A stretch of 34,081 nt of DNA from Pleurocapsaceae cyanobacterium CSU_1_1. Lineage in GTDB: Bacteria > Cyanobacteriota > Cyanobacteriia > Cyanobacteriales > Xenococcaceae. Below are positions 1,094-25,895 of the stretch, piece by piece. Made by a program: the position numbers and the translations under genes. The stretch covers positions 1-34,081 of the forward strand of contig JAAUOU010000046.1 in the NCBI GenBank assembly GCA_012034765.1, read 5' to 3'. Each line of letters opens with the position of its first letter. Position 1 is the first letter of the stretch. A model generated the notes under the pieces. It worked only from the letters and a program-made list of their open reading frames with translations, did not search any database and was not told the DNA's origin.

Positions 1094-1940
1094 ATGAATA
1101 CACATAAAGTAGCGATCGTTACTGCTGCTAGTCGTGGTATTGGTGCAGGATGTGCCAGAGAATTAGCAGCGCAAGGCTATACAGTTTCTTTAATGGCAAG
1201 AAGTGAAAGCATTTTTGACTTAGCCAAGGAGTTAGATGGTATTGCAACTCAGGGTTCTATTTCCAGTCCTGAAGATTTAGAGCGATTAGTTGGCACAACG
1301 CTAACTCAGTTTGGTCGTATAGACGCTGTAGTCAATAGTTTTGGCGATCCACCTCGACCAGATTTACTAGAAATTGACGATGCTATGTGGCAAGAAAACT
1401 TTGAAATGTTATTGATGAGTGTAGTCAATACTTCTCGTTTAACAACTAATAGAAAAACTAGAACAGTAGGGAATTGGGGCATTAGGGGATTGGGGCTTAA
1501 TCATTTCCCTAAATCCCTAAATCCCTAAATCCCTAAACGAGAAGTATTGTGAGTGTAGTTCGTATCGCCAGATTAGTAACAGAACCGATGATTCAACAAG
1601 GAGGAGGCGCGATCGTCAATATTTCCGCTAGTGACTCTCAAGAACCAGATTTGGGTACACCTTTTAGTGGTACAGTCCGCGCTGCGATGGAAGGATTTAC
1701 TAAACTCTATGCCAAACGTTATCGTCGCGATCGCATTAGAATGGTTTCTCTTGCACCTTTTTTGTAGCAGATTCAATGGAGGAGTTAGCAGGATGGAATG
1801 TCCCACAAGATTTGATGTTTGGTCGTCCTGTTACTTATGCTGAGTTGGCTAAAATAGTTGCTTTTCTGCTTTCTGAGGATGCCAAGTTTATTACAGGTAC
1901 AACTATTAAAGTAGATGAAGCCTATTCTGCTACTATCTAA
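1094..1940 (+). pseudogene. Short-chain dehydrogenase (SDR), broken by MITE and frameshift
   Basis: The gene encodes an SDR oxidoreductase. The N-terminal piece has the Rossmann motif TAASRGIGAGCA (TGxxxGIG-like, with TAA) and an NSFG segment in place of NNAG. The middle has GGGAIVNISASDS and a YAKRY motif, and the C-terminus GTTIKVDEAY. Two lesions break it. First, a 124 bp inverted-repeat element plus its 10 bp target duplication (134 bp in total, not a multiple of three) interrupts codons after MSVV. Second, after LAPF the frame stops at TTG TAG; adding one T to the T6 run (1758-1763) restores VADSMEELAGWNVPQ and the rest to the TAA at 1938-1940. Without both lesions a continuous protein of about 237 residues would be read. 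Loss of function is very likely. Confidence 0.9.
1426..1549. mobile_element. MITE-like element, 124 bp, with perfect 16 bp TIRs
   Basis: The left end CAATACTTCTCGTTTA (1426-1441) is the exact reverse complement of the right end TAAACGAGAAGTATTG (1534-1549). The element is flanked by identical 10 bp direct repeats TGAGTGTAGT at 1416-1425 and 1550-1559, a clean target-site duplication. Removing the element and one repeat copy joins the SDR reading frame perfectly (LLMSVV then RIARLV). The interior has no gene; it carries G-rich units (ATTGGGGC, ATTAGGGG) and then four CCCTAAAT-type octamers, which can partly pair, so the whole element could fold. It is non-autonomous and would need a transposase acting in trans. 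The 10 bp duplication would suit an IS4-like parent, but that is a guess. Confidence 0.92.
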
Positions 1941-19580: not shown

Positions 19581-19625
19581 TCCTATACTTCTCGTTAGGG
19601 AGATAGGGAGATAGGGAGAAAATTA
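19581..19625. mobile_element. Solo or decayed end related to the 1426-1549 MITE
   Basis: TATACTTCTCGTTAGGG is followed by AGATAGGG octamers and then GAGAAAATTA. This parallels the reversed right end of the MITE, CAATACTTCTCGTTTAGGG, followed by ATTTAGGG octamers and then GAAATGATTA. Fourteen of the 16 terminal bases can be aligned. No second inverted end is seen nearby, so it looks like a one-ended remnant. Confidence 0.5.
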
Positions 19626-19669
19626 AATTGTTAATAACCCCTAATTGCGTTTAAATCCAAGAGCAAAAA

Positions 19670-23708: not shown

Positions 23709-24805
23709 TTATTTAGTCCACTGACTGCGAAGCCAATCTATTGTCTCCATAATCTTTAGTGTTTCATCTAAAGGCATCACTTTGCTTTCCAACTCACCGT
23801 TTTGCAGACATCTAACTACTTCTGCTGCTTCGTAATTGTAGCCATTTCCGACTAAGGGTTTGACCGTCTTTGCGTCTGAATTTAATAAACCTGTCAGGGA
23901 AATATAGGCTCGTTTAATTAGCGAGTTTTGCTTAACTTTCGCCAACAGCTTTTGTTTACTGTTAAGAGGTATTAAAGGAGAGGGAAAAGAATTATTCGTA
24001 GCTTCAGGAAATTTAGTGAGGGAAAGCTTTTCGGGCATAATAAACAGTTTTTCTAGAGTAATTCTGCCCTTGTCGCCCATGATCATTGCTTGATTAGAGC
24101 TTTCTGTACAGAGAGATTGAGCCAAAACAGCTAATGCCCCATCAGCATAATTTAACAGCACCGCAGATTGTTCATCTACTCCTGTAGCTGAAAGATTTGC
24201 CTGTGTTTGCATTCTGGATGGTTCACCCAGGAGATAATAAGCTAGAGAAAGACCATAAATACCGCGATCAAGTAGCACCCCTCCGCCTTGCTCTAAAGTG
24301 TCAAAATGGCTGCTGTTACCGTTAACGATATAACCAAAATCTGCTGTAAGCATTCTCACCTTGCCAATTTCTCCCTGCTCAATCATGGTTTTTACCTGTT
24401 GAACCAAAGGCATAAAGCGCATCCACATCGCCTCCATGCAAAATAGCTTTTGGCGACGGGCGACTTGAATGACTTCCTGGGCTTGAGCAGCATTAACTGT
24501 AAAAGGTTTTTCGCAAAGAACTGGTTTTTTGCTGATAAACATAAAATACTCAAATCTTTGTGAGTATAGTTAGGAGTTCCAATGTAAACAACGTCGATAT
24601 CTGGATCTTGAACTAATTCTTCACAGCTATTATAAAAACGGGGAATCTGAAATATTTGGCTAAATACTTTGGCATTGGCAGCTTTTCTGGAAGCCACTCC
24701 TATTAGTTGAGCTTGTGGGACTGATTTTAATCCTTGAGCGAATTTTCCTGCAATGAATCCCGTGCCGATAATTCCCCAACGAATAGGTTGTGATGACATA
24801 CTCAA
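23709..24805 (-). pseudogene. Gfo/Idh/MocA family oxidoreductase, split by -1 in a T6 run
   Basis: The gene encodes an NAD(P)-dependent Gfo/Idh/MocA oxidoreductase, which acts on sugars or sugar-like alcohols. The N-terminal piece has the Rossmann start RWGIIGTGFIAGKFAQGL, GVASR and VVYIGTPNYTHKDLSI, then goes out of frame after LCLSAK. The second piece resumes as KKPVLCEKPFTVNAAQA, with the diagnostic EKP motif, MEAMWMRF and a C-terminal beta-sheet domain. Restoring one base in T6 (24525-24530 on the plus strand) gives LSAKKPVLCEKPF in one frame. The two frames overlap at 24392-24542. All family motifs survive, so this is a recent change, slippage or a sequencing error. The full length would be about 365 residues. 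Confidence 0.88.
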
Positions 24806-24849: not shown

Positions 24850-25895
24850 TTAATTAGCAGATTTAGCAAGAGCGATCGCGACTGCATCATTATTTTTGCG
24901 TAGTCCTTCGTAATGGAAAAACACTTGACCACTGAAGTGGCGATCGCGATTAGTTTTAATATATTTAATCAAGTCTTGATGACGAACATCTTTGCCATTA
25001 GCAGTCAAGGCAATACCTGGGGCAAATTTAGATAGTGAGTTAGGGTCAAAAGTTTGAACAATCTTCTTCACTTCTTGGTTGTAGCCGAAGAAATTAGAGC
25101 GATAAATCTGGGGGTGAATCATGTCGCATAAACCCTGATCTACCCAAGCTTTGCTATCTTGCAGCAGGTTATTCAGACAAAAAGGATATACCGCAGGGGA
25201 CAGGGAAACAATTGCTTGAGGCTTAATTGTTTTTACTGCTTGATACATTTCGGCTAAAAACTCAGTTAAAAGATTGGCGCGCCACTGTATCCACTGTTGG
25301 TTTTGGTGATTATAAGGCGGCTGCTTAACAAAACTTGCTTGATATTTCCCGATCGTAACACTATCGTATCCTGCGGTAACGGGCAAGGCAGGCAGCGATC
25401 GCATCCTTGAATTCCGTCTACATCATAGTTACTGATGATTTCTTTGATAATCGACTGCATAAATTGTTGAGCTTCGGGGTGAAAAGCATTCATCCAGGTT
25501 AGCCCACCCTGTCTTACCGTTGCGCCATCACGATCAATTGCTTGCCAATGGGGATATTGCTGGAGAATATGCCCTCCATCTGAGCGGTGAGAGGCAGCAA
25601 AACCATATTCCAACCAGGGGATTATTTGAAGATTACGCTGTCTTGCTTCTGTAATGATCTCTGCTAAAGGATCGCGCTCCTGCTTTTGATAAAAAGGGTC
25701 GATTGCTGGTAAATGATAGTGATTCATTATTTGGCTAGGATAGAGAGTATATCCCCGATTCCAAACCACAGGAAAGATCAGATTAAATCCATAAAAGCTT
25801 AAAAAATCTAACGCCTCAATTATATTTTGCCGTGACTCCAGCACTTTGCTGTGAGGACGATTGGCAATCCAAACTCCGCGTATTTCTGACATCAA
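24850..25895 (-). pseudogene. Glycosyl-hydrolase-like family 10 (GHL10) protein, split at a HIP1 site
   Basis: This is a TIM-barrel glycosyl-hydrolase-like protein of the GHL10 kind. The N-terminal piece reads EIRGVWIANRPHSKVLESR, then FNLIFPVVWNRGYTLYPS, PLAEIITEARQRNLQIIPW and NYDVDGIQG, then goes out of frame. The second piece resumes as LPALPVTAGYDSVTIG, with MIHPQIYRSNFFGY and PGIALTANG. A missing C beside GCGATCGC (25395-25402) would restore DRLPALPV. No signal peptide is seen. The frames overlap at 25266-25404. Joined length would be about 348 residues. The enzyme activity of the family is not well known; the likely substrate is a polysaccharide. Confidence 0.82.

Follow-up and report, generated by a model that had tools for sequence, protein, structure and literature searches.

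The interruption of a short-chain dehydrogenase/reductase (SDR) gene by a short sequence raises the question whether this sequence is a mobile element and, if so, to which family the transposase belongs that moved it. The window, i.e. the whole stretch of 34,081 nucleotides that was analysed, is the entire contig C95 of a 4.6-Mb draft genome consisting of 196 contigs, and its features are collected in Table 1. The original prediction of a 124-bp element with matching 16-bp inverted ends and a 10-bp target-site duplication (TSD) in an SDR gene was confirmed, as the inverted arms are complementary at 16 of 16 positions (100%), lie 92 nt apart and are bordered by an exact duplication. In the window there is a single occurrence of the paired-end pattern, which none of 100 dinucleotide shuffles contained, and the fold energy of the element as single-stranded DNA is -25.5 kcal/mol as compared to -9.23 kcal/mol (sd 2.27) for 200 shuffles. 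The 124 bp do not contain a transposase gene, and the sole open reading frame of at least 80 aa that enters the element is read-in from the host gene. With a length within the 50 to 1000 bp of MITEs, 16/16 ends, an exact 10-bp TSD, multiple copies and no transposase, the sequence has the properties of a MITE, and more specifically it is, with a probability of roughly 0.92, a type I MITE of the IS4 family, subgroup IS4, that is a non-autonomous element which retains only the ends of an IS.

Table 1. Features of the interrupted gene, of the inserted element and of a related sequence in the window
Position	Strand	Feature	Remarks
1094-1940	+	Interrupted short-chain dehydrogenase/reductase gene, pieces 1094-1425 and 1560-1940	Pfam domains, homologues in relatives
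1416-1425	.	Left TSD copy TGAGTGTAGT, 10 bp	Identical to right copy; single TGAGTGTGGT here in nearest homologue L188
1426-1441	+	Left terminal inverted repeat CAATACTTCTCGTTTA, 16 nt	Fits IS4-subgroup end consensus -AATR--------WTW----
1426-1549	.	124-bp MITE without transposase coding capacity	23 two-ended rows in fetched stretches; fold-back z -7.17
1469-1495	+	G-rich quasi-repeat, four runs of 3-4 G	Pattern of a putative G-quadruplex, at sequence level only
1506-1537	+	Octamer array TCCCTAAA x4	2-6 units in other copies
1534-1549	-	Right terminal inverted repeat, same 16-mer	Pairs with left arm
1550-1559	.	Right TSD copy TGAGTGTAGT, 10 bp	Identical to left copy
1758-1763	+	T run of 6, compared to 7 in nearest homologue	Second frameshift or sequencing error
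19583-19634	+	Related element, probably decayed to a remnant: left end damaged, units of GGGAGATA, AAATTGTTAA	Between genes

In the interrupted gene, PF00106 is found in 1094-1426 and PF13561 in 1767-1937. The insert is missing at all eight homologous loci, two of which are more distant (41% identity) and one of which (L193) contains a stop at another position of the gene. The nearest homologue, L188 from the same genus, is 93% identical over 111 residues with an open frame, and its single ten-letter sequence at the site agrees with the TSD of the window in 9 of 10 letters. The alternative of a non-mobile sequence, either ancestral to the dehydrogenase gene or due to a repeat expansion within it, is favoured solely by the octamer array, which is a simple tandem repeat. 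Its probability is practically nil, and it is already refuted by the insert-free homologues, in keeping with what had been expected of a mobile sequence, and by identical copies which are present elsewhere in the genome with different flanks.

Since the 134 added bases are not a multiple of three, the frame of the dehydrogenase gene is shifted. With the insert removed, translation across the junction gives MSVVRIARL, in agreement with the nearest homologue, so that the proposed restoration of the frame at MSVV-RIAR holds locally; the frame breaks again at the short T run further downstream, which is one letter short, and there is therefore no full-length frame even without the insert. The case for a second frameshift rests on the alignment to L188 and not on the length of the T run by itself, as L190 and L191 also have six T yet are open. 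The missing T could be due to decay after the insertion or to a sequencing error and, judging from these alignments, the gene could be carrying either two lesions or one lesion plus a sequencing error. Elsewhere in the window, pairs of overlapping frames on the minus strand at 23709-24805 and 24850-25895 resemble, by eye, one oxidoreductase-like and one glycoside-hydrolase-like gene, each of them split, and look like further frameshifts or draft errors in the contig.

With respect to the distribution of the element in the draft genome, the exact 16-mer occurs 45 times, and the whole element has at least 38 matches at E <= 0.001, including partial ones and bare octamer arrays, with 40 of 70 candidates scored. 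At up to three mismatches the 16-mer is unusable for counting (78 forward and 74 reverse hits, compared to 61 and 45 for the reversed control); the degenerate exact end pattern CAATACTTYTYGKTTA gives 27 + 27 hits in the genome against 0 + 0 for the control. Pairing of ends, limited to 39 fetched stretches and to at most four mismatches per end, resulted in 25 paired rows, of which C26:2314 and C163:8108 are nested mispairings that involve a chance end further out and were left aside. The remaining 23 two-ended rows span 107 to 203 bp and correspond to 22 insertions, since C118 and C189 are one insertion. The genome thus contains other copies of the ends, as anticipated for a transposable element, and most of those that are testable have a 10-bp TSD of their own: among the 20 rows having both flanks on one contig, the TSD is exact in 13, has one mismatch in two and two mismatches in one, and is lacking in four (C4, C60, C148, C74). 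As a control, flank pairs from different rows had at most two mismatches in 3 of 462 cases, and these three are explained, from the printed flanks, by the two nested mispairings and the C60 chimaera described below. The TSDs vary by site, with a purine in first place in 15 of 19 and a pyrimidine in last place in 15 of 19 (counts without background). Several contigs terminate in MITE copies. Copies at contig ends pair into three further insertions with an exact 10-bp TSD (C104/C45, C78/C152, C118/C189). A wider contig search for exact end pairs of 108-138 bp, from which records of this genome and of very close ones may be missing, returned one record, Xenococcaceae cyanobacterium MO_188.B32.

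The copy on C60 (L009, C60 41693-41753) shares its right flank with the window, its left flank is foreign, and on this ground it is probably an assembly chimaera. False joins thus probably occur in this draft and, together with the contigs terminating in MITE copies, this would be in line with the window, too, being a product of unrelated flanks joined through a shared MITE. Such an origin is nonetheless very improbable, as a false join would not yield flanks that belong to one gene and share one and the same 10-mer, which L188 has once and in 9 of 10 letters.

The recent activity that had been proposed for the element finds support in 9 of the 25 rows being letter-identical (window included, leaving seven other loci), which makes it a candidate for a recently active element; movement itself we infer from this identity, and the draft assembler may have evened the copies.

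As to the family of the transposase, relatives contain elements of 1.48-1.52 kb in which an IS4-family transposase gene is flanked by these ends or by variants of them. In G007, which belongs to the same genus, the ends enclose a stretch of 1494 bp with the transposase. The transposase of a relative scores 64.4 bits for PF01609 (cut-off 23) and 166.1 bits for NF033592, 'IS4 family transposase' (cut-off 115). Seven two-ended IS copies, from which two loci with ends around pieces of transposase were excluded (L119, apparently nested, of ~2.7 kb, and L150, of ~1.4 kb and containing an additional end), measure 1479-1517 bp and have 16/16 ends in six cases and 15/16 in one; an exact 10-bp TSD is found in three of the six testable copies, the other three being without. 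The YREK pattern, Y-(2)-R-(3)-E-(6)-K, is present in 10 of 12 loci scanned, the misses being L074, a stretch of the window's genome in which no transposase is expected, and L156, a true transposase locus. For the second catalytic aspartate, a narrow pattern found its target on the same strand as the IS4-like gene in L116 only.

According to Table 1 of De Palmenaer et al. 2008 (PMC2266710), subgroup IS4 comprises elements of 1400-1650 bp with ends of the form -AATR--------WTW---- and direct repeats of 10-13 bp, and in the sections of that paper considered here a transposase gene without frameshift is named as a hallmark. The left end of the window's element matches this consensus at 7 of 7 specified positions, and the end consensus, the 10-bp TSD where found and the length of the full element, the latter in relatives only, all fit the subgroup. 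The likeness to the subgroup as described there thus comprises ends, TSD, full-element size in relatives and YREK, and the difference is that the window's element has 124 bp and no transposase. In G070 (L137) the transposase is a 423-codon open frame with the variant end CAATACGGTTCAGTTA; those of G007 and G006 are either split or incomplete, and several genes are broken. The G007 transposase (L116) consists of two ORFs of 63 and 341 aa and, judged by eye, has a small insert containing GTCCTAAAGGA at the break (about 1204-1240). This IS copy may be inactive.

Across 100 genomes, the transposase protein query has matches in 18 at E <= 1e-20, its source genome included, and CAATACTTYTYGKTTA is found in 31, the window's included; because the reversed control also matched 6 genomes (8 hits), a lone end hit in a relative may be chance. 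Both end pattern and transposase occur in 11 genomes, ends only in 20, transposase only in 7 and neither in 62 (Fisher's exact test, p = 0.004, of little weight as kinship is ignored). That 20 of the 31 genomes with the end pattern, the window's own among them, are without transposase at this threshold suggests that short elements are able to persist after loss of their source, with the reservation that single end hits may have arisen by chance.

In the 4.6-Mb draft of the window's own genome, the partner transposase has no match at E <= 0.001. In addition, such an end pair is absent, at up to three mismatches, from all 10 of its DDE_Tnp_1 loci, each read with flanks of up to 1.5 kb, and no transposase was recognised by eye among the ORFs beside the single unpaired ends on C168, C19, C152 and C53. 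A transposase gene with the same ends, towards which the original prediction had pointed as a check, therefore exists in relatives but was not found in this draft. Since repeats are where contigs break, a partner missing from the draft may still exist in the genome; the autonomous partner is lost, unassembled or elsewhere. This missing partner, and the presence of ten other DDE_Tnp_1 loci, would also be compatible with a MITE moved by a different transposase family resident in the genome, its likeness to IS4 ends being a matter of convergence. Such a history is unlikely, given that 0 of these 10 loci (the scope being DDE_Tnp_1 loci alone) carry such an end pair and that an IS4-family transposase is enclosed by this very 16-mer in relatives, with a TSD of equal length.

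Following the preferred assignment to subgroup IS4, we infer a mobilisation in trans in which an IS4-type DDE transposase would have bound the 16-bp ends, excised the element and inserted it at cuts staggered by 10 bp, and in which gap repair would have produced the 10-bp duplication. The insertion would have struck the short-chain dehydrogenase gene and shifted its frame. Counting against this assignment are the missing partner and the lack of end pairs at the DDE_Tnp_1 loci in the window's own draft, the 4 of 20 testable MITE rows and the 3 of 6 testable IS copies without TSD, as well as the lack of YREK in L156 and the restriction of the aspartate match to L116. Furthermore, the interior of the MITE bears, by eye, no clear likeness to the IS copies outside the ends, so that descent by internal deletion would be no more than a possible origin.

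In the majority type of copies, the interior consists of a G-rich stretch and an array of CCCTAAAT, and copies of 108, 116, 124, 132 and 140 bp have 2, 3, 4, 5 and 6 units, respectively, the 124-bp copy on C62 having only three intact units owing to a point change. The octamers and G-rich units that had been described for the interior are hence present, in the window as a fourfold array and one G-rich stretch, with the qualification that the number of octamers differs between copies; replication slippage would most likely be the process that changes it. A four-run G pattern on each strand, as a sequence pattern only, is found in 12 of 12 rows with at least four units, mispairings excluded. In other copies, identical or similar ends enclose an interior that is GGGATGTA-like or TACCTAC-like, and ACAA follows one end in the majority type and in most copies with other interiors.

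A link between the element and short tandem repeats elsewhere was found in part. By coordinates, four arrays of CCCTAAAT lie outside elements in the window's own genome (C54, C75, C148:14971 and C157:2980), and around the arrays of C54 (L209) and C75 (L214), at about 1501, no end-like sequence was found within 400 nt at up to five mismatches. The C75 array has a G-rich stretch ahead of it, as in the MITE. In the relative G002 (L200), an array adjoins an end-like sequence with three mismatches. As CCCTAAATCCCTAAATCCC reads identically backwards, the reversed control for the array search is void. It is conceivable, if rather doubtful, that the element represents a mobile mini-VNTR, in which an IS4-type MITE took up the octamer array of the genus and spreads copies of it, the number of units then changing.

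Elements of this kind are already known, published examples comprising cyanobacterial MITEs, MITEs located in genes and one MITE with a tandem repeat inside. Nezha is reportedly counted among the cyanobacterial MITEs. The MITEs of Anabaena sp. 90 (PMC3542288) and the 187-bp MITE of Microcystis aeruginosa PCC 7806 (PMC11448079) include gene-interrupting copies and predicted stem-loops, as given in the respective excerpts; there, the former are reported to have no match to the IS ends of that genome and are called type II, and the latter is assigned ISL3-family ends. The BrickBuilt MITE of Porphyromonas gingivalis has a tandem-repeat interior and 19 copies in one genome and, in the text available from that report (Klein et al. 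2015, PMC4596501), a 23-nt unit, both ends in 4 of 19 copies, TSDs of varying length and an always intergenic location. In contrast, the element described here has an 8-nt unit, 10-bp TSDs where found and at least this one copy in a gene. The G-rich heptamers GGGGA(C/T)T of Nostoc and GGGAATC of Xanthomonas are characterised, in the relevant extracts of PMC4692102, as short tandem units with putative quadruplex potential, whereas here the unit is an octamer which is mostly carried within a transposable element. A literature search for CAATACTTCTCG found no paper, and the literature on MITEs with IS4 and cyanobacteria contains, as far as surveyed, no account of this element. What is added here is the likely partner family, the 10-bp TSD and the variable octamer array inside the element.

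Some cyanobacterial MITEs, e.g. those of Anabaena 90 as presented in the cited part of PMC3542288, are without an assigned partner. The present element provides a well-documented cyanobacterial case, comprising ends, TSDs, an interrupted gene with insert-free homologues and a named candidate transposase family. If the element should indeed be a mobile mini-VNTR, the short tandem repeats scattered through cyanobacterial genomes would in part derive from MITEs.
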